From Opitutaceae bacterium (GTDB lineage: Bacteria > Verrucomicrobiota > Verrucomicrobiia > Opitutales > Opitutaceae), in assembly GCA_016794625.1 (NCBI GenBank), contig JAEUGY010000074.1, positions 1 through 64,000 on the forward strand: DNA of 64,000 nt. The letters run 5' to 3'. The stretch's first letter is position 1. Each line of letters begins with the position of its first letter. The notes beneath the pieces are model-generated. The model did not search any database. It was not told where the DNA came from and worked only from the letters and a program-made list of their open reading frames with translations. Made by a program: the position numbers and the translations under genes. This document shows positions 18,613 through 30,582 of this stretch, in pieces.

Positions 18613-20325
18613 ATGGCTGAGGACCTCACTCCCAACTCAGGCAAGAAACATCGTGTCATTCATTGGAATCCGGATGCCGGCAACGAGCCCACGAAACGCC
18701 GTTGGTCGGTCTGGCGGGCGCTCGCCTGGACGGTCGGCGGCTTTTTCGGCCTGCTGATCGCGGCCGGCATCGTCATCCGGGGCATCAAGCTGGTGTTTGG
18801 GCCGGATGTGTTCACGCCGCGTTCGAGCGCGGTGGCGTCGGGTGCGGCTGGCGGTCCCGGGGACCCCAACGCTTCGTTCGTCAGTCAATCCAAGGCCGAG
18901 CTTTCGCGCGAAACGGCGGCCAAGGCGCTGGTCGAACTGCGCAAGCTTCCCCAGGATCATCCCCGCCAGCTCGAAAAGCTTGTCCTGCTGGAAAAGGCGT
19001 TTCTCGCCGGCGAAGCCTACCTAGCGGCGCGTAACTTTTCCTCGGCCTCGATCCAGTTTGAGTCGCTCAACCGGGAAATCGACGAGTTCACCCAGTCGGT
19101 GAAGGCGCGCGGAGAGGCGCAGCTGGCCTACGACACCATCCTCAGCCGAATCCAGGATTTGGAGCGCGCGCGCAGTCTGGCTCCCGAGGCCCTGGAAGCG
19201 GCGTTTTCCGCCGCCGGCAGCGGCCGGCAGTTCCTCGTGGAAGGGAGCTTCCTCGCGGCCAAGCGCACCTTTGACCGGGGTTTTGCGGAGTTGAAGAAGG
19301 CCGAGCAGACGCTCGCCGCCTACGTGGAGGGCAATCTCGTGAAAGGCCAGCAGGCGCTGGTGGCCGGTCAGCGGGAGGCCGCGGAGACTGCGTTCAAGGC
19401 CGCCCTCGAAAAGTCTCCGGGCAATGAGATCGCCCTGCAGGGCATCAAGCGGGCGGAGCACGCCGACCGGGTGCATGCGCTCCTCGTCCAGGCGGCTGAT
19501 TTCGAATCGCAGCAAAAGTACGGCGAAGCCGCCGCCTCTTATGAGAAGGCCTTTGGCCTGGACAAATTTTCGGCATCGGCCCAGCAGGGCAAGGCCCGCG
19601 CCCTCCGGCTGGAGCAGGAAACCAAGTTCAGTCTCGCCTTCAACACCGCGAAGGCGGCGTACGACACCCGCAACTGGCCGGTCGCGATCGCGGAGTTTGA
19701 AAAGGCGTTGAAGGTCACCCCGAAGAACGCCGAGGTGCAGGGTTTGTTGACCTCGGCCCGCGAGAAGGCCCACAAGGACGCGGTCGATTCGGCCGTGGCC
19801 AAGGCGTTCGCCTACGAAAACCAGTACCAGTGGAAGGAGGCCCGCGGCGCCTACTACGAAACGCTGCAGCTCAAACCCGACCACGTCGAGGCGAAGGAGG
19901 GTTATGCCCGCACCGGAAAGATCATTCGCACGCTGCTGGAGTACCACAAGTTGATCGAGGTGGCGGAGCAAAAGGCCGCCCGCGCGGAATTCCAGGCCGC
20001 GATCCGCGACTTCAACAAGGCGATGTCACTGAAACCTGAATACCTGCCCGCCTCCGAGCGCCTGACCCAGCTGCGCGATCTGCTGCAGACGCAGAACCAG
20101 CCGGTCGAGGTGACGTTCAAGGGCGATGGCAAGACCTGGATCTCGATCACCAACTTCCGTCTGCTCGGACAGGCGGAGGAGACCAAGGTCAAGATCCTGC
20201 CGGGCGATTACGAGGTGATCGGTCGCCGCAAGGGCTATCAGGACGTACTGCTGCTGCTGCAGGTGCGCAACGGGGCCCCCGCCCCGGTCGTCGCGGTCAG
20301 CTGCAGCCTGCGCGCGGAGAAGTGA
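18613..20325 (+). CDS. Membrane-anchored TPR protein with PEGA-like C-terminus
   Basis: The protein has 570 residues: a basic cytoplasmic N-terminus (1-35), one membrane span (about 37-58), then about 430 residues of tetratricopeptide-like helical pairs (FEKALKVTPKNAEVQGLL and FNKAMSLKPEYLPASERL). A final ~70-residue beta domain (VEVTFKGDGKTWISI to LPGDYEVIGRRKGYQDVL) resembles PEGA. PEGA domains are extracytoplasmic adhesion modules, so the bulk is probably periplasmic. It starts a plus-strand trio that converges on the ExbB/VWA operon and shares the PEGA theme with the SUMF1 protein at 28.3-30.6 kb. I infer a scaffold for a membrane complex; no enzymatic motif is visible. Confidence 0.7.
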   Translation: MAEDLTPNSGKKHRVIHWNPDAGNEPTKRRWSVWRALAWTVGGFFGLLIAAGIVIRGIKLVFGPDVFTPRSSAVASGAAGGPGDPNASFVSQSKAELSRETAAKALVELRKLPQDHPRQLEKLVLLEKAFLAGEAYLAARNFSSASIQFESLNREIDEFTQSVKARGEAQLAYDTILSRIQDLERARSLAPEALEAAFSAAGSGRQFLVEGSFLAAKRTFDRGFAELKKAEQTLAAYVEGNLVKGQQALVAGQREAAETAFKAALEKSPGNEIALQGIKRAEHADRVHALLVQAADFESQQKYGEAAASYEKAFGLDKFSASAQQGKARALRLEQETKFSLAFNTAKAAYDTRNWPVAIAEFEKALKVTPKNAEVQGLLTSAREKAHKDAVDSAVAKAFAYENQYQWKEARGAYYETLQLKPDHVEAKEGYARTGKIIRTLLEYHKLIEVAEQKAARAEFQAAIRDFNKAMSLKPEYLPASERLTQLRDLLQTQNQPVEVTFKGDGKTWISITNFRLLGQAEETKVKILPGDYEVIGRRKGYQDVLLLLQVRNGAPAPVVAVSCSLRAEK

Positions 20326-20344
20326 GCGACTTTCAACCCCTCCC

Positions 20345-21103
20345 ATGACGACCCTTCGTTTTACTGCCCTGGTGGGCGGCCTTGTCCTCACCGCGGCCGT
20401 GCTCCCCGCGCAGGAGCGTGAAACCAGCCGGCCCGCCCGTTCCAGTTCGACGGTTTCCAAAGGCGTGCTGCCCGATCCGCTGCTGCTCGACGGCAGTAAG
20501 GAGGCGGCCGAGAAGATTCCCGAACATGGCATGCTCGGCGAGTTCGAGCTGCCGGGCAATGAGAACGCCAAGAGTGACAAGGTCGGCGGCGCTCAACCTG
20601 AGGAGCAGGCCGCCGGCGGTGGAGCCCAGCAGAAACAAAAGGACGGCGGAGGATCGGGCGCCCAGGCGGCTCAGGCCGCCCAGGCCGCGGCCCAGCAGGG
20701 CGGCGGTGGGTCGGAACAGAAGGAAGGTTCCGGTCAGGGCGGGCAGGCCGGACAGGAGGGCCAGTCCCAACAGGGAACCGCATCCACCGGCGCGCAAGGC
20801 GCGGCGGGCGCCAAGGCCGAGGGCATCCAGGCCGCGGGCCTGAGTGACCCGAATGGAGGAGCGGCCGCTCCGCAGAACCAGGCGAACACGCCGCCGAGCA
20901 ATATGAAGATCGGCGACGCGGCCTTGCAGATCAAGACCCTGCCGCCGGGAGTCGCGTCGGCCGTGGTGGGCATGGAGGCGCAGCCGAAGGGCAAGGACAC
21001 ACCGCAGAGCTACGATGCCAAGACCCCGGGCGGCGGCAAACAGTCGACCGGCCGCGGCAATCAGGGCGTGGAACGTGGAAAAGTGATGCCGCCCGGGCTT
21101 TAA
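20345..21103 (+). CDS. Secreted Gly/Gln/Ala-rich low-complexity protein
   Basis: The 252-residue protein has a signal peptide ending near LPAQ. A short conserved-looking segment (VLPDPLLLDGSKEAAEKIPE to LGEFELPGNEN, about 41-75) precedes about 90 residues of Gly/Gln/Ala/Ser/Glu low complexity. The C-terminal ~80 residues are more ordered (MKIGDAALQIKTLPPGVASA). I recognise no family. It sits 19 bases after the TPR gene and 18 before the next low-complexity gene, so the three are probably one operon. The composition suggests a disordered periplasmic or surface polymer. Confidence 0.65.
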   Translation: MTTLRFTALVGGLVLTAAVLPAQERETSRPARSSSTVSKGVLPDPLLLDGSKEAAEKIPEHGMLGEFELPGNENAKSDKVGGAQPEEQAAGGGAQQKQKDGGGSGAQAAQAAQAAAQQGGGGSEQKEGSGQGGQAGQEGQSQQGTASTGAQGAAGAKAEGIQAAGLSDPNGGAAAPQNQANTPPSNMKIGDAALQIKTLPPGVASAVVGMEAQPKGKDTPQSYDAKTPGGGKQSTGRGNQGVERGKVMPPGL

Positions 21104-21121
21104 CCCCTCTGAATTAATTTT

Positions 21122-22099
21122 GTGAATACCCTACGCCCCCTTCTGGCTCTCTGCGCGATCCTGGCTGGCGCCGGCTCGCTTTCGGCCAAGACCATCATCT
21201 ATCCGGTGGAGGCCATTCCGGAGCTCTGGCTGCTCAACGCGACCGACTTTCAGACCAAGTACGGTGGCATCGATGTCAGTGGACTCGGGGTGAGTGACGA
21301 GGGTTGGTATGTGCGCTACCGGCACGAGAACTTGAGCCTCTTTTTTGGACCGCTGGCGGACCGTGAGGCCGCGCAGAAGAAATCATGGGAGCTCGAGGCC
21401 GTGCGCGATGCCGCCATCCGCAACCGGGCGTCCCTCGCCTCCAGCAAAGTGGACTATGTCCGCTTCAGCCTGTCCGGCGTCTATGGGGCCCGGGGCAATA
21501 CGCCCTTTACCGGGAAGAAGGGGGAAGGGGAGAATGGCGGTGAAGGCAATGGCACGGGGCAGGGCGAAGGAGAGGGCAAGGACGGTCAGGGCAAGGGCGC
21601 CGATGGCTCCGGCGAGGGCGGCGGGAAGGATGGCTCCGGAAGTGGCGATGGCAGCAAGGACGGTTCCGGTGGCGACGTGCAGGGCGAACAGATTGCCGGG
21701 CTGGGTGGTAACGGACAATCGGGCGGCAGCGGAAATTCCGCCGGCAAATCCGGCCGGTCGGGCTCCCAAGGCAGTCAGGGTGGTTCTTCCGGCAGCCAGG
21801 GCAGCTCCATGGGCGAGGGCAACCAGGCGTTGCAGCAGATCGCCCAGATTGGCGGAGCGGCGGGCTCGCAGGGGTCCCAGCAGGGCGGACAAAGCGGTTC
21901 GCAAGGCAGCTCCAGCGGACAAAGCGGCCAAAGCGGACAGAGCAGCGGACAATCTTCGAGTCAGCAAGGATCCCAGGGTGGTGGCGCCGGCAGCGGAGGT
22001 CCTCCGGGTGCTCCGGGAGCGCCGTCCAGCGGACAGTCCGGTGGTGGCGATCCCATTACGGCGGTGATTGGACTTCTGCGGCGCATCCTCGGTTTGTAA
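21122..22099 (+). CDS. Secreted Gly/Ser/Gln-rich protein with ordered N-terminal domain
   Basis: The GTG start lies 18 bases after the previous gene. The 325-residue product has a signal peptide (about 1-22), then an ordered ~110-residue domain (YPVEAIPELWLLNATDFQTK, VSDEGWYVRYRHENLSLFFG). A ~170-residue tract almost entirely of Gly, Ser, Gln, Asp, Glu and Lys follows, with acidic and Lys-rich GxGx repeats first and SGQSGQ repeats later. A short hydrophobic end (AVIGLLRRILGL) could be an amphipathic anchor. No known family is recognised. The gene converges on the VWA operon with a 105-base gap. An extended, flexible secreted protein is inferred. Confidence 0.65.
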   Translation: MNTLRPLLALCAILAGAGSLSAKTIIYPVEAIPELWLLNATDFQTKYGGIDVSGLGVSDEGWYVRYRHENLSLFFGPLADREAAQKKSWELEAVRDAAIRNRASLASSKVDYVRFSLSGVYGARGNTPFTGKKGEGENGGEGNGTGQGEGEGKDGQGKGADGSGEGGGKDGSGSGDGSKDGSGGDVQGEQIAGLGGNGQSGGSGNSAGKSGRSGSQGSQGGSSGSQGSSMGEGNQALQQIAQIGGAAGSQGSQQGGQSGSQGSSSGQSGQSGQSSGQSSSQQGSQGGGAGSGGPPGAPGAPSSGQSGGGDPITAVIGLLRRILGL

Positions 22100-22204: not shown

Positions 22205-23206
22205 TCAGAGGTCCTGCAGGGCGATGAACGCGCCGCCGTGCTGGTGGCAGAGTTCTCGCATCAGGTTCGCCACTTTCAGTCCGGTGTTTCCCATGGAGAC
22301 GTCGAACCGGATGGTGGTCGGGAAGGCGATCGCGTTGATGACGACCCGCCGCTTGCCGTTTTCGTCGGCGGGATTCAGGTCGTCGACCCGCTTCAGGACG
22401 GTATCGGCCGTGCCGGTGAACTCGTCGCAGAAGATGTAGAGCCCCATCTTCATCTTTTCGTTGGTCGGATCGAGCAGCAGGCGCAGCGCCCGGAAAATGC
22501 CCGGCACCGGATTACTCTCGCTGAAGACATCATAGCGGCGCAGGGCGCGCTTGATGCCCTCCCGCGTTTCCGGGCCGTCGGGGAGCCACTGGGCGCCGCC
22601 GCGCTCACCGAGGACGAAGCGTCCGTCGGCATCCAAAATCTGGATCCCGTCGACTTGGGGATAGACGTCGAGCACCTCCTCCACCTTGCGGATGACGATC
22701 GGCCAGAGCTGACCCGAGTTGAAGTCGCGCATCGAACCCGAGGTGTCGATGACGAAGGCGATGTAGTTGCTGCCCACCGGCACCCCGACCGGGGCGGGCT
22801 CGACGTTGGGGAGCACCATCTCCGGTTTGCTCTGCATCGCGGCCAGTTCCTTCTTCAGCGCGTCCACATCCACCAGCAGCGCCTCCTGACCGGCCTTCTC
22901 CCGCTGCAGCTGCTGGTCGAGGTCGTCGAGCATCGACTGGATCTCGTCGTTCTTCAGCTTGGTTTCGGCAATCTTGGTGGTGGTCAGCTGCAGGATCTTT
23001 GAGAGATCCTCGCGACTAGAGACGAGATTGGCGAGGGACGCGAGGTAGGTCGCGAGCATCTTCTGCAGATCTTCGACCGTCTCCTGGTTCTGCTTGCCCT
23101 GCGCGCCAATCGACAGGACGAAAATGAGAATCATCGCCCCGAAGCCGCAGCAAATGCAGTCGAGGAACGAGAGACTGAAGACTTCCAGTTTTCTCCGCTG
23201 CTTCAT
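22205..23206 (-). CDS. Membrane-anchored VWA-domain protein with intact MIDAS (ExbD/MotB-like N-terminus)
   Basis: The protein has 333 residues. The N-terminal FSLSFLDCICCGFGAMILIF (10-29) is one membrane span with an aspartate (Asp16) at its start, as in ExbD, MotB and ZorB B-subunits. A coiled coil (about 40-125) leads to a von Willebrand A domain whose MIDAS reads DTSGSM (Asp154, Ser156, Ser158), so metal binding should be intact. It overlaps its paralogue by 4 bases (ATGA) and is the last gene of the ExbB/ASKHA/VWA operon. I infer that it replaces the peptidoglycan-binding B-subunit of a proton-driven motor. Generic VWA annotation is the conservative reading. Confidence 0.82.
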   Translation of the reverse strand: MKQRRKLEVFSLSFLDCICCGFGAMILIFVLSIGAQGKQNQETVEDLQKMLATYLASLANLVSSREDLSKILQLTTTKIAETKLKNDEIQSMLDDLDQQLQREKAGQEALLVDVDALKKELAAMQSKPEMVLPNVEPAPVGVPVGSNYIAFVIDTSGSMRDFNSGQLWPIVIRKVEEVLDVYPQVDGIQILDADGRFVLGERGGAQWLPDGPETREGIKRALRRYDVFSESNPVPGIFRALRLLLDPTNEKMKMGLYIFCDEFTGTADTVLKRVDDLNPADENGKRRVVINAIAFPTTIRFDVSMGNTGLKVANLMRELCHQHGGAFIALQDL

Positions 23207-24270
23207 GATTCAGGCCAGTATTTGGAAGGACTGATCAGGGCGCCGCGCGTGCGGTTGGCCAGTTCCCAAAAGAGTGCGGGCGCGGCGGGATCTCCGCTCA
23301 TGGGCATGAGCACGGTGCTCACCGGAATGCGTTCCGGGAGCATGCGGACCGCCTCGCGGAAAAAACGCACGCGCTGTTCATCGGTCGTGGCGCCATCGCT
23401 CAGATAGGAGTCGCTCGACGTGGGCAGTCCGTCGGTCAACAGCACGATCGCGTCCGGCAGGCGGGAGAGGGTGCGCACCTTGCCGAAGGCCCGTTCCAGA
23501 TTGGCTGAGCCGGAGGGGACAATCTGGTTCAGTTTGGTGACAATCTCGGCGATCGCCTTTTTGTCGGACAGGGCAAACCACTCGTCGGCGCGCTTCGGCA
23601 GGATGGCGTTCGCATCCTCGTTGAAAATCAGGATCTGGAATCGCGTCTCTGGCGCCAGCGTCGCGAGCATCCATTCCAAGGCCCGGATGGTCCGCTGCCA
23701 TTTCGGGGATTCCCGCTTCTTGTAATCGGGTTCCTCAAGCAGGTCCGACGCCTCCTCCACCGTTTCGCCGAGCATGCTGCCCGAGGCGCGCACCAGGAAA
23801 AGCACGCATTCCCCTTCGAGACGAAAACCGGTCAGGTACTGACGACGATCGACGTCCGGGATCGGAAGCGGAGCCTGGTCGACGGTCGGCAGGGCCTTCT
23901 TTTTGTCCATCAGGCTGGCCAGTGCGTCCTTCAGCAGACCGGTCTGCTGAAGCAGGGCGAGCAGCTCCCGTTTGCGATCCGTCAGTTTGAGCTGCGATTC
24001 ATTCGTCTTCTTCTGCAGCGTCGGCAGTTCGGATTGAGCAGCGGTGAGCAGTTTGGTCAGCCGCTCCACCTCTTGTTTGCTGGCCGAAACCTGGAGTTCG
24101 AGCCGGCGAAGACGATCCTGCAGGTCATCGACGCTGATCCGGTCGATCGTTCGCTTCTGTGCGACCGACAGGATGAAGATCAGGATGATCGCACCGAAGC
24201 CGCAGCAGATGCAGTCAAGAAAGCTGAGACTGAAGACCTCGGTCTCCCGGCGTTGGCGGGGGCGCGACAT
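23203..24270 (-). CDS. Membrane-anchored VWA-like protein with degenerate MIDAS
   Basis: This 355-residue protein is a paralogue of the next gene. It has the same N-terminal span (FSLSFLDCICCGFGAIILIF, Asp19), then a coiled coil (about 45-125) and a VWA-like domain. The MIDAS position reads RASGSM (161-166): the metal-binding aspartate of DxSxS is an arginine, while both serines remain. A second VWA landmark, VLLTDGLPTSS, is present. It probably cannot bind a divalent metal through the usual site. The pair of one intact and one altered VWA protein, produced in a coupled way, suggests a heterodimer. Confidence 0.8.
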   Translation of the reverse strand: MSRPRQRRETEVFSLSFLDCICCGFGAIILIFILSVAQKRTIDRISVDDLQDRLRRLELQVSASKQEVERLTKLLTAAQSELPTLQKKTNESQLKLTDRKRELLALLQQTGLLKDALASLMDKKKALPTVDQAPLPIPDVDRRQYLTGFRLEGECVLFLVRASGSMLGETVEEASDLLEEPDYKKRESPKWQRTIRALEWMLATLAPETRFQILIFNEDANAILPKRADEWFALSDKKAIAEIVTKLNQIVPSGSANLERAFGKVRTLSRLPDAIVLLTDGLPTSSDSYLSDGATTDEQRVRFFREAVRMLPERIPVSTVLMPMSGDPAAPALFWELANRTRGALISPSKYWPES

Positions 24271-24299
24271 GGCAGTGCGGGGAAAAGGGGCGGCCGCGC

Positions 24300-25781
24300 T
24301 CAGCCGGTGCCGTTGACCGCAGCGGGCGGGCAGTGGGCGAACAGGATTTCCGCGGTATGCTCGCCACAGCGGAACTGCAGCCGGTCGCCACTTTCGATTT
24401 CAATGCGGGGAGAGACACCGCTCTCGGTGGGTGACGGGTCGGTGAACCACCACCCCTGGCCCTCATGTTGCAGCGCGAGGCTGCAGTCGGTCGCATGGTT
24501 GAAGTCGTCCGGCAGGGGAAGATCGGCGGCCAGTCCTTGCACTCCGATGCTGAAACGCGACCGACCGGCGAGGGCTCGCCCCAGGCCGTCGAGCAGCGCG
24601 TGGGTGGGTCGTGGAGCCGGCTGCCCGGAACGGCGGCCCCGGTGCAGGTGCACTTCCCAGCGCTGGGTCATGCGGTTGCGCGACAACTCGCTGGCGTGGG
24701 ACTTTAGAACCGGAACCTCGGAAAGATCCGAAGGCACCTTCAAGCGGGCGGCGATCATGGCGGCTCCGGCGGCGGCGGCGCCATGCGGCAGGCGGATGAA
24801 ACGTACAAACCCCACGGCGCGCAGCCGCGATTCCAGCTGACGAAGCCAGATGGAACGCTCGGTCAGCGCCACGGCGCACAGGCCGGGAGACAGTCCGTGG
24901 TTCTGCGTGAACTTGAGGAGCATCTGCACCAGGTTCTCGGCAAACGCCTGGGAGTCCGACACCAGTTGTTCGCGCTTCACCGCCATTTCGTAACCGCGCT
25001 TGGTGGTGTTCAGGGTGTAGCGGAAATCGGGATCGTCCGAGGTCAGGAAGGCCTTGGTCTGATTGTAGAATTCCTGTTCCAACCGGCCGTCTTCCATGAC
25101 ATCGAACGACGTCTGGCGCAGAAAGCGATTCGCCATGGTGGCCGTCAGGTGCTTCAGGAGTTCCAACAGACCGGATTGCGGGAAGTGGAGAAAGGCTCGT
25201 CGCTCCAGTTTTTCCGCCGAGACCACGAGGGACAATTCAGCGGTGTGCAGGTGCAGGTCCAGCACCAGCACCGGGCGGGCCGGATTGAAACGGGGGCCGC
25301 GGGGATCGCACAGGGCGGCCGTCGCCATGTCGACCACGCCGGCGAGGGGCAGTTTGAGGTCGGAGGCCATGCCGAGAAGCAGCCCGATCTTTTCCTCCTC
25401 GGTAGTCTGGTCGCGCAGGTACACGCCGGGCACGGCGAGCGCCATGCGGGTCGCCCCGGGCGCCGTCTGGGCGAGACGCGTGGTGAAGTTGCGCAGAAAA
25501 TAGTAGGCAACTTCCGAGTACGACGGTGAGCGCGGGGGCACGACCAGCGTCGAGCTGTCGTGGTTCAGCTTCGACCAGAACGTATGCACCACCTTGCGGG
25601 GCTGCACAAACCAGGCGGCCTCCGCCGGCTGGCCAAAAACGTAATCACCGCCGTCGTGCAGCGCGAAGCCGGGGAAGGAGGCATCCGCGCCACTTCCCGC
25701 GATCCGGATCAGGTGCGGCTCTTCGCCCTCGAGTCGGGCTGCTTGGAAGTTTGCGTCGCAGAGTTCAATTCCGTGGGTCAT
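24300..25781 (-). CDS. ASKHA-fold (actin/Hsp70-like) protein with FHA-like C-terminal domain
   Basis: The protein has 493 residues and no signal peptide. ASKHA landmarks: phosphate-1-like GIELCDANFQAA at the N-terminus, ALAVPGVYLRDQTTEEEKIG (114-133), phosphate-2-like VLVLDLHLHTAELSLV (171-186) and adenosine-like LPHGAAAAGAAM (331-342). The glycine-rich turn of phosphate-2 is replaced by HLH, so nucleotide binding may be altered. Residues about 395-483 have an FHA-like rhythm (GRSRFSIG, LPLPDDF, WWFTDPSPTESG, IEIESGDRLQF), but the canonical Ser-x-x-His and Asn are not clear. It lies 20 bases after the ExbB-like gene and 29 before the VWA pair. Its probable role is a cytoplasmic regulator or filament partner of the channel. 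Confidence 0.7.
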   Translation of the reverse strand: MTHGIELCDANFQAARLEGEEPHLIRIAGSGADASFPGFALHDGGDYVFGQPAEAAWFVQPRKVVHTFWSKLNHDSSTLVVPPRSPSYSEVAYYFLRNFTTRLAQTAPGATRMALAVPGVYLRDQTTEEEKIGLLLGMASDLKLPLAGVVDMATAALCDPRGPRFNPARPVLVLDLHLHTAELSLVVSAEKLERRAFLHFPQSGLLELLKHLTATMANRFLRQTSFDVMEDGRLEQEFYNQTKAFLTSDDPDFRYTLNTTKRGYEMAVKREQLVSDSQAFAENLVQMLLKFTQNHGLSPGLCAVALTERSIWLRQLESRLRAVGFVRFIRLPHGAAAAGAAMIAARLKVPSDLSEVPVLKSHASELSRNRMTQRWEVHLHRGRRSGQPAPRPTHALLDGLGRALAGRSRFSIGVQGLAADLPLPDDFNHATDCSLALQHEGQGWWFTDPSPTESGVSPRIEIESGDRLQFRCGEHTAEILFAHCPPAAVNGTG

Positions 25782-25801
25782 GGGGTGGAGTGCCTCGGGA
25801 C

Positions 25802-26662
25802 CTAGGCGGGAACATTCGACGACTCTTCCTTCGTCGGCACCTTCATCACATCAATCAGCCGGTCGCGGCAGTAAGTTTGCGTTTCGATGATGAATGCCTC
25901 CTGGCGCGATTGCATGGTGTGCAGAATGAACATCAGCACCAAACTCAGCAGCAGCGCGACGAGGGTGGAGTTGAAGGCGAGACCGAGCCAGCTGGTGACC
26001 GCGGAAATGTCGCCCTGAATCGCCTCCTGCGCATACGCCAGCGCGCCGCCGATGCCGCGCACGGTTCCGATGAACCCGATGGCGGGAATGGCCCACGCGA
26101 TGTAGCGGACGAGCGACAGGGCTGACTCGAGCTGCTCGGCGGCCAAATCGGTACGCTCCTTGACGGCATTGGCGGCGTCCTGGATCGAGTGCGACGCATG
26201 GAACCGATGGAGCGCGGCGAGCATGCATTCCGGCAATAATCGCTCTCGCCATCGAGGTTCCTTTTCGATGGCCGCTTTCAGCTCTTTGTAGCGATCGAAG
26301 GCGTCCTCGGGGATGATGCGTTCACCCGTCTGCAAATGAATAAAATCATGCTTGAACAACCGGCGCTCACGGCCGACCTGGGTGAGCTTGTAGGTGAGCA
26401 CAATCATGGCCCAGATAAAGAGGACCAGCTCCCATTGTTGTTCCGGGTCCTTCAAAATAATGTACATCGACAACTGGTCGAGGTCGGCCTTGGCGTTGGC
26501 CCCGGCCTGGGCGCGCATCACCTTGCTCTTCAAAAGCAACTCCTCCGCACGTGGGCGGACGACGGCACCGTAAAAGATCTCCGTCACAACGATCGCAAGA
26601 ATCAGGCCGAGGTTCGGGACGAGGAACTCAAGCGAGAGAATTCCCTTGTTTCGCGAAATCAT
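25802..26662 (-). CDS. MotA/TolQ/ExbB-family proton-channel subunit
   Basis: The protein has 286 residues with spans at about 13-33, 77-93, 184-205 and 224-248. The last two carry the family signature IPAIGFIGTVRGIGGALAYA and then GLAFNSTLVALLLSLVLMF, including the conserved Thr and Gly positions that line the proton path. ExbB/MotA/TolQ proteins form pentamers around a dimer of B-subunits and use proton flow to drive rotation. No ExbD, TolR or MotB of ordinary type is adjacent. The two VWA proteins downstream have a B-subunit-like span, so I infer that they are the partners. It is the first gene of the minus-strand operon. Confidence 0.85.
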   Translation of the reverse strand: MISRNKGILSLEFLVPNLGLILAIVVTEIFYGAVVRPRAEELLLKSKVMRAQAGANAKADLDQLSMYIILKDPEQQWELVLFIWAMIVLTYKLTQVGRERRLFKHDFIHLQTGERIIPEDAFDRYKELKAAIEKEPRWRERLLPECMLAALHRFHASHSIQDAANAVKERTDLAAEQLESALSLVRYIAWAIPAIGFIGTVRGIGGALAYAQEAIQGDISAVTSWLGLAFNSTLVALLLSLVLMFILHTMQSRQEAFIIETQTYCRDRLIDVMKVPTKEESSNVPA

Positions 26663-26803: not shown

Positions 26804-26845
26804 ACTACAGAGTAATTGAAGCGCAATCCTCCTTTCGCTACATTT

Positions 26846-27511
26846 ATGGAGTCCCCCACAATTTCTGATCGCCTGCGTCAAGTTCGTCCCGCGGTCGCCC
26901 TCATCACCGCCTTCGCTGTCTTTGGTCTGGCCGGATGTTCATCGGTCGCTCCGTCCAAGACCGCCACGGGCGCGGGTACCGGTGCAGCGGCGGGTGCAGT
27001 CGTCGGTGGACTGGGCGCGGGTGCGACCGGCGGGAACAGCAGCACCGGCATCCTCGCGGGTGCGGCCGCGGGTGCGATCATCGGAGGCGTGGTCGGCATG
27101 GTGAAGGACGCCAAGGAGCGCAAGGAACAGGACCGCCTGGCCCAGGAGCGTGCGTACCAGCAGGAGTTGTCGCGCAAACGCGCCGAAGAGGCGAAGCGCA
27201 AGGCGGAGGTGGAGGAGGAGTTGGCCGTCACGCAGGGCTTTCGTATTTCCGACATGGAGCTGGCCGACGCCCAGAAAAAGGTGGAGTCGGCGACGGAGCG
27301 TCTGCAGCGCTTGAAGGATGAGCGCACCGCGGCGCTGAACAAGAAGCGCTCGCTCGACGAGGCCAACGAACGGCTGCTCGCGACCGAGGCGGAGATCGCC
27401 CGGATGGAAGAGGAGCTGGCGAGGCTGAAGAGCGACGATGCCGCCACCGGCTCCCTCAACGCCGCGCCGCCGGCGCCCGCTCCAGCGGGCCCGGAGAAGC
27501 CGTCTCCCTGA
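26846..27511 (+). CDS. Lipoprotein with glycine-zipper and coiled coil
   Basis: The start at MESPTISDRLRQ is chosen over a TTG ten codons upstream because the candidate promoter and the signal fit it. The lipobox is LAGC. Next comes a Gly/Ala-rich zipper (TGAGTGAAAGAVVGGLGAG, ILAGAAAGAIIGGVVGM) of the YMGG/OmpA-linker type, then a charged coiled coil (about 85-205) and a Pro/Ala tail. Glycine-zipper lipoproteins sit in the outer membrane and can insert or oligomerise. It is divergent from the ExbB-like operon and 12 bases before a second lipoprotein gene. Function is unknown; an envelope anchor for the neighbouring complex is possible. Confidence 0.7.
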   Translation: MESPTISDRLRQVRPAVALITAFAVFGLAGCSSVAPSKTATGAGTGAAAGAVVGGLGAGATGGNSSTGILAGAAAGAIIGGVVGMVKDAKERKEQDRLAQERAYQQELSRKRAEEAKRKAEVEEELAVTQGFRISDMELADAQKKVESATERLQRLKDERTAALNKKRSLDEANERLLATEAEIARMEEELARLKSDDAATGSLNAAPPAPAPAGPEKPSP

Positions 27512-27523
27512 GACCTGCCCCCG

Positions 27524-28246
27524 ATGCCGGCCCGCGCGACCCGTCTGCTCCTTCCTCTGGCGCTCGCGGCGATGCTGTCGTGGGTTTCTGGATGCCAGTC
27601 GACCTATCAGGTCAAGATCGACGCGATCAGCAAGCCGGGGGTCGCGGGCGCCCAGTCCTACCGGATCCGATACAAGAATGGATCGATTCCGGGCGAGGAG
27701 TCGCTGCGTGAGAAGGAGGCGGCGGACTTCGTCCGCACCGCGCTTTCCGGCAAGGGGTTCTACGAGGCGCCGAACGCCGCGGCGGCGGACCTGGTGATCG
27801 AGATTGATTTTGGCATCGAAAAGCCGCGCACCAAGATGGAAGACAACAGCGTGCCGATCTACGCCCAGGTGGGCGGAGGAATCCGGTACGAGACGGTTCC
27901 GGTGACCACGAGCGATGGTCGGACCGCGCTGCGCACGGTGGCCGTGCACCAGCCTCCCCGCACGGAGTTGGTGGGCTATCAGAACATGGCCGTGCCCGTC
28001 ACGACCTACGAAAAGTACCTCAACCTGAAGGCGCGGGAAAACAAGGCGCGCGAGGAGGGGGCGCCGCCCACGGAGGTCTGGAATGTCCGGGTCAGCAGCG
28101 TGGACGAGAGTGACGACCTGCGAAAGTACCTGCCGATTCTGGCGTCGGCCTCCATCGACTACATCGGGGTGGATTCGACCAGCCAGCAGACCGTGAAGGT
28201 GCGCGACGGCGACTCCGGGGTCTCGTTTGTTCGCAAGGGACTCTGA
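27524..28246 (+). CDS. Putative lipoprotein, function unknown
   Basis: The 240-residue protein has a lipoprotein signal (LLLPLALAAMLSWVSGC). The mature part contains RIRYKNGSIPGEESLREKEA and a beta-rich middle (DLVIEIDFGIEKPR), weakly like DUF4136-type lipoproteins, and no catalytic motif. It follows the glycine-zipper lipoprotein by 12 bases and is probably co-transcribed. It ends convergent to the SUMF1 gene. Confidence 0.6.
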   Translation: MPARATRLLLPLALAAMLSWVSGCQSTYQVKIDAISKPGVAGAQSYRIRYKNGSIPGEESLREKEAADFVRTALSGKGFYEAPNAAAADLVIEIDFGIEKPRTKMEDNSVPIYAQVGGGIRYETVPVTTSDGRTALRTVAVHQPPRTELVGYQNMAVPVTTYEKYLNLKARENKAREEGAPPTEVWNVRVSSVDESDDLRKYLPILASASIDYIGVDSTSQQTVKVRDGDSGVSFVRKGL

Positions 28247-28305: not shown

Positions 28306-30582
28306 TCAGTTCGGGGTCTCCCGCACGAGCGCGAGACGGAAGCCGAGACCGTTTCCGCGATCGTTGGGTGCGAGCCAGTGCCGGAATGCCGAACGGCAGG
28401 TATCCGCGGAGCTTCGCCAGCTGCCGCCACGGTTGACGCGATACGCGCCGGCCGGAGGGCCGAGCGGATCGGCCACAGGCTGTCCGTCGACACCGGGAAG
28501 GTAGGCCTCGGCGTACCAGTCGCGGCACCACTCCCAGACGTTCCCGTGCATGTCAAACAGTCCCCACGCGTTCGCGGCCTTCTTGCCCACGGGATGGGTG
28601 GAGCCGCCGGAGGCTTTCGCGCCGTACCACGCCATGCTCTCCAGTTCACCCGCGTAGGGCAGGTTGGAGCCGGCCCTACAGGCATACTCCCACTGGGCCT
28701 CCGTCGGCAGCGTATAGACATAACCCGCGGGAAGCCGGCCGGCCGCCCGTTCGCGTTCCGTCAATTTGCGTCCGAACTCCATCGCATCCTTCCAGGAAAC
28801 CATCTCCACCGGCGCGTCGGCGCCGAGCTCCTTGAACGCACTCGGATTTCGTCCCATCAGCGTGGTCCACTGACCCTGGGTGACCTCGTGCCGGCCGAGC
28901 CAGAATCCCTGGCTGATGGCGACGCGCATGAGCGGCCCCTCGTCAGGCACGCGGCCCGGTTCATCGGGCGGGCTTCCGAGTGTAAAGCTGCCCGGACGTA
29001 TCCACTGCAGTACGAGTCCGAGCTCGGGAATGTTGAAGGCCTGCCCGGGTTTGGGCACGGGAATCTCGTCCAGCCGGACTTGCACCAGCTGGTTCTCCTC
29101 GAGACCGACCGTTGCCGCGAGCGTCGCCGGCAAGTGCCCGGGCAGCCGGGCGGTCAGGCGAAGGGTGCCGCCCCGAACAAGATCGAATTCGCGCGGTGCC
29201 GTCCCCAGGTCACGACCCGCCTCGTCGAAGAGCTGTGCGCCCGCGGGTTCCGAGCGAACCGTGAGGCGTCCGATGAAGCGCGGCTGCCAGCGCTTGAAGT
29301 CGGCGTCCTCGGTGCCGGCCAGCAGGGCAAGTGGCTGCATGCGGCCGCGCCAGTCGGCGGGCGCGGGTTTCGCCCCCGGATCGTCGAGGTACGCGAGTGC
29401 CGTGCGCAGCTCGTCGATGTAGCGCGCGACCGCCTCGGGTTCGTCCTGCTTCACCTGAAGCAGCGCCTCGGGCGGCCAGTCGTGGCCGCCGAGCACGGCT
29501 TCGATCAGGGGGCGGCCCACCTTGCGGTAGTGACGTCCCCGATTCTCTTCGGCCTGGGCCGTCCAGATTTCCGCCGCCGCCTGTGCATCGCGGGCTCCTC
29601 CCTCGGGGTCCGCGGCTTCGAGCAGGCGGGCTGCGCTGCGTGCCTTCACCCGCGCCGGATGTTGGGCGAGAAAGTCGTCGAGCCAGCGTCGATGTTCATC
29701 GAGCAGGCTCCAGCGCAGCCGTGTCCATTCCAGCGCCCAGCCGCCACCGGCGGCGAGATCGCGTTCGGCCGATTTCAATTCGCCCAGCGTGGTCTCGATC
29801 GCGGCGAGCCGACGGGCGGCGGTTTCAAAATAGGTGTCAACTTCGGCGATCCGCAGACGGGCCTGGCGATCAAGGGCGACGCGTCGTTCCCCGGCCTGGC
29901 GGTCGGCCTCCCGGCGGCGGGCTTCGACTTCCGCTTCCAATCGGAGCCGTTCCTGCTGACGCGCCCGTTCGGCGGTTTCGTTTTCCGCGACAATCCGGGC
30001 GGTTTCCAGCCGGGCCAGTTCGGCCAGCCGGTCGGCCTCGGCTTTGGCCTCGCGCGCGCTCCACCACCAGATGCCGCCGGCGATGAGGAGCGCAATCAGG
30101 GCCAGGGGAATGATGAGCAGGTCCACCCGCAGACGCGGGCGACCCGGTGCGCCAGGACCGGCCAGTCCGAACGCGCTCGGCGCCAGCACATGTCCAGCCA
30201 CCACGGCCCGTGGCACCCACTCGCGGGTTTCGGGTTCCGCGACGGAGGGTTCGGGGGCCGCCATTGAAACCGGCTCACCGGGACGGGGTTCAAGGTGGTC
30301 GAGGGCACGCTCCGTCGAGGCCAGTTCCACCATCTCGAAGGCCCGGGTCAGTTCATCGAGGGTGTGGCGGTACCGGGTGCGCAGGCCGGGGGTGGGCGCC
30401 TGGCGCAGTCGCTTCTCGAGCAGGATGCGTTTTTTCTCGTAAAGACGCCCCCGGGCCTCGCTGGACGCGTCCGGCCCAAGACCCAGGAGGTCGGCGGCGC
30501 GTTCGAGACTGAGGGGAAGATCGTCCATTTTAGGCAAACCCCCCTGAGCCAGAGCGAGAAGCGGTGCGGAGGCAAGCGACAT
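28306..30582 (-). CDS. Membrane protein with J-like N-terminus, coiled coil, PEGA and SUMF1 (FGE-like) domains
   Basis: The start at 30582 has a GAGGAG site 11 bases upstream; an internal ATG at 30528 (MDDLPLSLERAADLLGLG) is equally plausible for the domain start. Layout for 758 residues: helical J-like segment (about 25-85), Pro-rich linker, one span (about 153-174), coiled coil (175-270), helical region, PEGA (about 437-505) and SUMF1/FGE-sulfatase domain (about 520-755; MRVAISQGFWLGRHEVTQGQ, DMHGNVWEWCRDW, VNRGGSWRSSADTCRSAFR). In the cysteine region only the distal Cys is kept where true FGE has two, so formylglycine formation is unlikely. A ligand-binding or scaffold role near the ExbB/VWA complex is inferred. 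Confidence 0.82.
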   Translation of the reverse strand: MSLASAPLLALAQGGLPKMDDLPLSLERAADLLGLGPDASSEARGRLYEKKRILLEKRLRQAPTPGLRTRYRHTLDELTRAFEMVELASTERALDHLEPRPGEPVSMAAPEPSVAEPETREWVPRAVVAGHVLAPSAFGLAGPGAPGRPRLRVDLLIIPLALIALLIAGGIWWWSAREAKAEADRLAELARLETARIVAENETAERARQQERLRLEAEVEARRREADRQAGERRVALDRQARLRIAEVDTYFETAARRLAAIETTLGELKSAERDLAAGGGWALEWTRLRWSLLDEHRRWLDDFLAQHPARVKARSAARLLEAADPEGGARDAQAAAEIWTAQAEENRGRHYRKVGRPLIEAVLGGHDWPPEALLQVKQDEPEAVARYIDELRTALAYLDDPGAKPAPADWRGRMQPLALLAGTEDADFKRWQPRFIGRLTVRSEPAGAQLFDEAGRDLGTAPREFDLVRGGTLRLTARLPGHLPATLAATVGLEENQLVQVRLDEIPVPKPGQAFNIPELGLVLQWIRPGSFTLGSPPDEPGRVPDEGPLMRVAISQGFWLGRHEVTQGQWTTLMGRNPSAFKELGADAPVEMVSWKDAMEFGRKLTERERAAGRLPAGYVYTLPTEAQWEYACRAGSNLPYAGELESMAWYGAKASGGSTHPVGKKAANAWGLFDMHGNVWEWCRDWYAEAYLPGVDGQPVADPLGPPAGAYRVNRGGSWRSSADTCRSAFRHWLAPNDRGNGLGFRLALVRETPN

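Follow-up and report, generated by a model that had tools for sequence, protein, structure and literature searches.

Which partner does an ExbB-type channel drive when neither ExbD, TolR nor MotB is encoded beside it? The question is raised by a locus in the window (the whole stretch of 64,000 nucleotides from an Opitutaceae bacterium analysed here), where four head-to-tail open reading frames occupy positions 22205-26662 of the minus strand, in the order ExbB-like, Hsp70-like, VWA1 and VWA2 (Table 1). A preliminary description of this DNA had read them as one operon encoding a channel, an ASKHA-fold protein and two VWA proteins, and had put them forward as a candidate new motor. Its gene coordinates proved exact and all four families could be identified. 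The novelty did not survive, as the same arrangement had appeared in print in 2025 (PMC12204202).

Table 1. Features of the motor locus and of the two adjoining lipoprotein genes
Feature	Position	Strand	Size or best match
ExbB-like	26662..25802	minus	286 aa
Hsp70-like	25781..24300	minus	493 aa
Hsp70-like, nucleotide-binding domain (Hsp70-like)	residues 1-348		
Hsp70-like, beta domain (FHA-like in homologues)	residues 375-482		
VWA1	24270..23203	minus	355 aa
VWA2	23206..22205	minus	333 aa
Glycine-zipper lipoprotein	26816..27511	plus	YiaD-type glycine zipper 5.9e-8, below family cut-off
DUF4136-like lipoprotein	27524..28246	plus	Pfam DUF4136 2.6e-4, below cut-off

Conservation of the gene set

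The ExbB-like and Hsp70-like genes are separated by 20 bp, the Hsp70-like gene and VWA1 by 29 bp, and VWA1 and VWA2 overlap by 4 bp (ATGA). Promoter and terminator scans at the locus gave no excess over shuffled sequences.

VWA1 was found in 21 of 57 relatives, each time with an adjoining match of VWA2 type. A scan of named genomes returned 526 candidate loci, the best 80 of which all came from Verrucomicrobiota, nearly all from Opitutae/Opitutales and including Pelagicoccus isolates. In 106 of 107 loci, the distance from the VWA1 motif to that of VWA2, which follows downstream, was 1.0-1.4 kb; the exception is L159, whose genome has a VWA2 on a different contig. Upstream of VWA1, ExbB was present in 98 of 100 loci. 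The two loci lacking it (L032 and L099) are the same contig of a single genome, G044, where the operon is split between one contig with ExbB-Hsp70 and another with VWA1-VWA2, all four genes being kept. In another genome, G016, the operon is present twice, as two diverged copies (L034 and L040). A plasmid search with VWA2 gave no match.

The gene-neighbourhood check across Verrucomicrobiota found the gene set conserved. In a phylum-wide sample of 289 genomes, the channel subfamily (threshold E < 1e-50, the next match being at 6.7e-26) and VWA1 occurred in exactly the same 18. The chance of such a perfect overlap is 6e-29 on the assumption that genomes are independent, which they are not. We concluded that the four genes are one conserved set, held together far beyond chance in many families of the phylum.

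The channel subunit and the classical partners of the host

Assignment of the first gene to the ExbB/MotA family was confirmed by a match to Pfam MotA_ExbB (PF01618) at 5.3e-13 (49.3 bits, cut-off 22.9), which covers the C-terminal two-span region. In a profile search the channel matched TolQ at 5.8e-4. By hydropathy, spans are found at about residues 8-26 and 79-97, in addition to the C-terminal pair. Two Thr-bearing motifs, GFIGTVRG and LGLAFNST, were invariant among unique channel homologues, as GF[IV]GTVRG in 94 of 94 and LGxAFN[ST]T in 94 of 94. By analogy with the family, we assumed that they lie in pore-facing spans. The channel also matched the PADLOC ZorA model weakly (4.8e-6). A Zorya defence system was rejected, this weak match standing alone and no other Zorya component being found among the four genes.

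The host genome contains six MotA/ExbB genes, four of which (contigs C45, C73, C4 and C23) adjoin ExbD and one (C93) MotB. The window channel, on contig C29, is the only one of the six without an adjoining ExbD or MotB, its neighbours being the VWA genes. Seven ExbD matches were counted in the genome. The absence of ExbD, TolR and MotB that had been described for the locus held for the contig as a whole: no ExbD or MotB match was found on it, and all ExbD and MotB genes of the host are on other contigs. On C73 and C4 of the host genome (G000), ExbB is accompanied each time by a pair of adjacent ExbD genes.

VWA1 and VWA2 as candidate B-subunits

VWA1 matched Pfam VWA_3 at 9.4e-6, a family also matched in 17 of 21 of its homologues. 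For VWA2 the match to VWA_2 was weak when the protein was taken alone (0.015), while all 21 homologues matched, and its AlphaFold2 (AF2) model resembled solved VWA domains with E down to 1.8e-7 and probability 1.00. The VWA fold is thus based on Pfam and the AF2 model for VWA2, and on Pfam for VWA1.

As described earlier, each protein has a single N-terminal hydrophobic span with a buried aspartate, Asp19 in VWA1 and Asp16 in VWA2; hydropathy placed the residue at the start of the span in both, behind a positively charged N-terminus. In VWA1 the N-in span (SFLDCICCGFGA) is followed by a long helix and the VWA head, and in the model of VWA2 one continuous helix runs from residue 12 to 124 before the head begins. 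The Asp was invariant in 102 of 102 unique VWA1 sequences, a count biased by the fact that VWA1 loci were found in part with peptide patterns that may include this residue, and in 97 of 97 unique VWA2 sequences, a count free of that bias. The spans also share DCICCGFG (Asp19-Gly26 in VWA1, Asp16-Gly23 in VWA2), a segment rich in Cys and Gly. CGFG after the Asp is kept in all 199 unique VWA1 and VWA2 sequences, and we have no explanation for its retention in a pore helix.

Neither protein matched Pfam ExbD/TolR (PF02472) or MotB, nor did such a match appear among those listed for 42 homologues. Alignment of the N-terminus of VWA1 with ExbD by hhalign set Asp on Asp, without reaching significance (E about 0.07), and for VWA2 no alignment was obtained at the position of the span. 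Since similarity to ExbD is not significant, the identification of B-subunits rests on layout, the position of the Asp, co-occurrence and published models. Taken together these support well the earlier proposal that the VWA proteins are the B-subunits of a 5:2 motor, a proposal that was already published in 2025 (PMC12204202).

The two heads differ at the metal site, as judged from the sequence of the first MIDAS motif. In VWA1 this motif is degenerate, with RASGSM where DxSxS is expected, and in all scored sequences except one, Arg or Glu stands in place of its first Asp. The motif of VWA2 is intact (DTSGSM), and DxSGSM was found in 93 of 93 scored sequences. A broken motif in one protein and an intact one in the other suggests that VWA2 may be a ligand-gripping head and VWA1 a structural one. 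In phylogenetic trees the two form separate clades (100/100 support) with broadly matching topologies, meaning that the pair is ancient.

A candidate third subunit with an Hsp70 fold

Taken alone, the second protein of the operon had no meaningful Pfam match. A profile of its family matched DnaK at 5e-6 over residues 3-346, and its AF2 model (pLDDT 89, pTM 0.86) superposed on Hsp70 nucleotide-binding domains with Z 32 (VIA) and 2.5 A rmsd over 337 residues; Foldseek gave 6.5e-19 against DnaK. The actin/Hsp70 fold previously claimed for this protein is therefore real. The FHA-like tail that was claimed with it is plausible: two of 16 homologues matched Pfam FHA, the better one at 2.7e-5, the window protein itself had no such match, and a structure search with the whole model returned no FHA fold, the nucleotide-binding domain filling the list of hits and the tail being hardly covered. 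No transmembrane span was found.

Both phosphate loops are altered. Phosphate-1 reads GIELCDAN against GIDLGTTN, GTTN being replaced, and phosphate-2 reads DLHLHTAELS against DLGGGTFDVS, with DLGGGT replaced. Such degenerate loops make ATP hydrolysis unlikely, and the protein is probably not an ATPase in the manner of Hsp70.

In most lineages the gene is placed after ExbB and before VWA1. The copy of family f38 is short and diverged, and in families f11 and f12 the gene is missing, so that the Hsp70-like protein is not essential to the core. Its profile was found in 11 of the 289 Verrucomicrobiota genomes, 10 of which have the motor.

Neighbouring genes

Divergently from the operon lies a gene for a lipoprotein composed of a lipobox (FGLAGC), a glycine zipper and a predicted coiled coil, in that order; its start is likely the in-frame ATG near 26846. 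By tblastn, 85 of 95 loci had it upstream of ExbB, those of f11 and f12 included, and it was not found in the loci of f38, f43, f8 and f21. This gene neighbourhood is the link that makes the lipoprotein the best candidate for an outer-membrane partner or target. The DUF4136-like lipoprotein is a frequent neighbour, near the motor in 78 of 95 loci, and its tie is looser: of the 18 genomes that have the motor it is present in 9, and it also occurs in 4 genomes that do not.

Further out, three plus-strand genes at 18613-22099 of the window are convergent with the motor operon, an arrangement seen in many Opitutaceae and not elsewhere. They encode a TPR protein with a PEGA-like end and two secreted proteins with a conserved N-terminus and long low-complexity tails. 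They were considered as parts of the machine and left out, because roughly half of the loci do not have them next to the motor. On the other side, at 28306-30582, an FGE-sulfatase-like domain (Pfam 9.1e-45) is encoded behind a membrane span and a PEGA-like segment. This gene has a GldK-like score in NCBIfam, and similar genes were seen near the operon in L037, L038, L040 and L153.

Relation to a published motor class and to other systems

A closely similar set, the TPH-vWA/TolQ-like class, is described in PMC12204202 (Mol Biol Evol 2025), founded on sequences from Idiomarina: vWA proteins tethered by a transmembrane helix, whose occurrence closely tracks that of tolQ homologues, with no tolR or exbD, in Proteobacteria and Verrucomicrobia. 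As described there, they mostly form heterologous pairs, carry a TolR/ExbD-like Asp helix, and in AF3 models with 5:2 stoichiometry have their helices inserted in the pore as axles. At our locus a TolQ-like gene adjoins a heterologous vWA pair, each member has one N-terminal helix, which bears the conserved Asp (102/102 and 97/97), and tolR and exbD are missing. The likeness concerns locus-level features, of which all that were compared agree, and was established by comparing descriptions. The window set differs in having an Hsp70-fold subunit, the main text of PMC12204202 making no mention of Hsp70 or DnaK, and a divergent glycine-zipper lipoprotein, the section on the class mentioning no lipoprotein. 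Among the papers searched, none was listed as joining ExbB, VWA and Hsp70 in an operon of this kind.

With ExbBD, TolQR and MotAB, the system shares the A-subunit family (PF01618) with its Thr-bearing motifs, and a partner whose single N-terminal span has an Asp close to its cytoplasmic end. It differs from them in that the partner continues into a long helical stalk and a VWA head, instead of the ExbD/TolR fold or an OmpA-like domain, and in the presence of two unlike partners. The gliding motor of Myxococcus, AglR with AglQ/AglS, likewise combines one A-subunit with two B-subunits that are different paralogues. We know of no VWA heads on AglQ or AglS. In that motor too, the choice between homo- and heterodimer is unsettled (PMC9389320). 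Zorya ZorAB resembles the window system through the weak ZorA match of the channel and an Asp-bearing partner, but VWA1 and VWA2 have no ZorB match and bear VWA heads. As for the third subunit, it shares with Hsp70/DnaK and Ssz1 the fold of the nucleotide-binding domain and the DnaK profile match, and differs from them in its replaced phosphate loops and in the FHA-like tail that stands where Hsp70 has its substrate domain.

Proposed machine and alternatives

The established points at this locus are the gene set, its conservation, the invariance of the motifs and the predicted folds of VWA2 and the Hsp70-like protein. Their best explanation, and in our judgement a probable one, is an inner-membrane ion motor of 5:2 type belonging to the class with vWA B-subunits. 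Its ring would consist of five ExbB-like chains, and its axle of one VWA1 and one VWA2 chain. As elsewhere in the family, the N-terminal helices of the VWA proteins would stand inside the pore, with Asp19 and Asp16 toward the Thr ring, and the passage of protons would turn or shift the axle. Beyond the span, a helix of about 88 residues in the AF2 model, about 13 nm long if straight, could cross the periplasm to the VWA heads. The VWA2 head, whose metal motif is intact, may grip a protein ligand there, and VWA1 may have a structural or regulatory role; at the outer membrane, the neighbouring glycine-zipper lipoprotein is the best candidate target. On the cytoplasmic side of the ring, the Hsp70-fold protein might control assembly, position or activity.

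The VWA proteins could instead be TolA/TonB-like transducers docked laterally to a motor that has an ExbD encoded elsewhere as its true B-subunit. A transducer-type vWA family does exist, recognised by an SHLS motif and by adjacent tolR-like genes (PMC12204202), and the seven ExbD matches of the host point the same way. Yet the window spans carry the invariant Asp and no SHLS motif was seen in them, and the ExbD genes of the host adjoin other ExbB genes or sit on other contigs, none near the locus, which makes this reading very improbable. Hardly better placed is a gated channel or sensor that reports to the Hsp70/FHA-like protein and does no mechanical work at the outer membrane. Motors of the ExbB/MotA family can act in inward signalling, as in Zorya, and the cytoplasmic partner has domains of regulatory type; the long helical stalk, the VWA head with its metal motif and the neighbouring lipoprotein point outwards, however, and the two lineages without the Hsp70-like gene keep the remaining genes.

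Another arrangement would keep the motor and change its axle, one ring working with a pair of VWA1 and another with a pair of VWA2, with no single heterodimer. ExbD, TolR and MotB as a rule form homodimers, and the Asp is kept in both spans. Against this, VWA1 and VWA2 occur jointly as adjacent genes with broadly matching trees, a single ring gene serves both, and one of the two paralogues has lost the first Asp of the metal site. We regard two homodimeric motors as unlikely, though by less than the readings without a VWA-driven motor. Returning to the 5:2 motor of the vWA class, a fuller version of it can be offered tentatively: a heterodimeric VWA axle with one metal-binding and one metal-blind head, and a cytoplasmic Hsp70-fold/FHA-like controller that does not hydrolyse ATP and is possibly sensitive to phosphorylation.

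The motor class with VWA-headed B-subunits is already predicted in print (PMC12204202). As far as the literature searched shows, what appears to be new is the conserved Hsp70-fold/FHA-like subunit with its lost nucleotide loops, the split between VWA1 with a broken MIDAS and VWA2 with an intact one, and the divergent glycine-zipper lipoprotein. The set is carried by Pelagicoccus isolates, and can thus be tested in culture.

B-subunits determine what an ion-driven envelope motor pulls on, and a VWA-headed class would put protein ligands under force, rather than peptidoglycan or partners of TonB type. The conserved Hsp70-fold partner suggests an extra layer of control, of a kind that to our knowledge has not been described for ExbBD, TolQR or MotAB. 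If true, a VWA motor controlled by an Hsp70-fold protein would be a first link of the Hsp70 fold to an ion-driven motor of the cell envelope.
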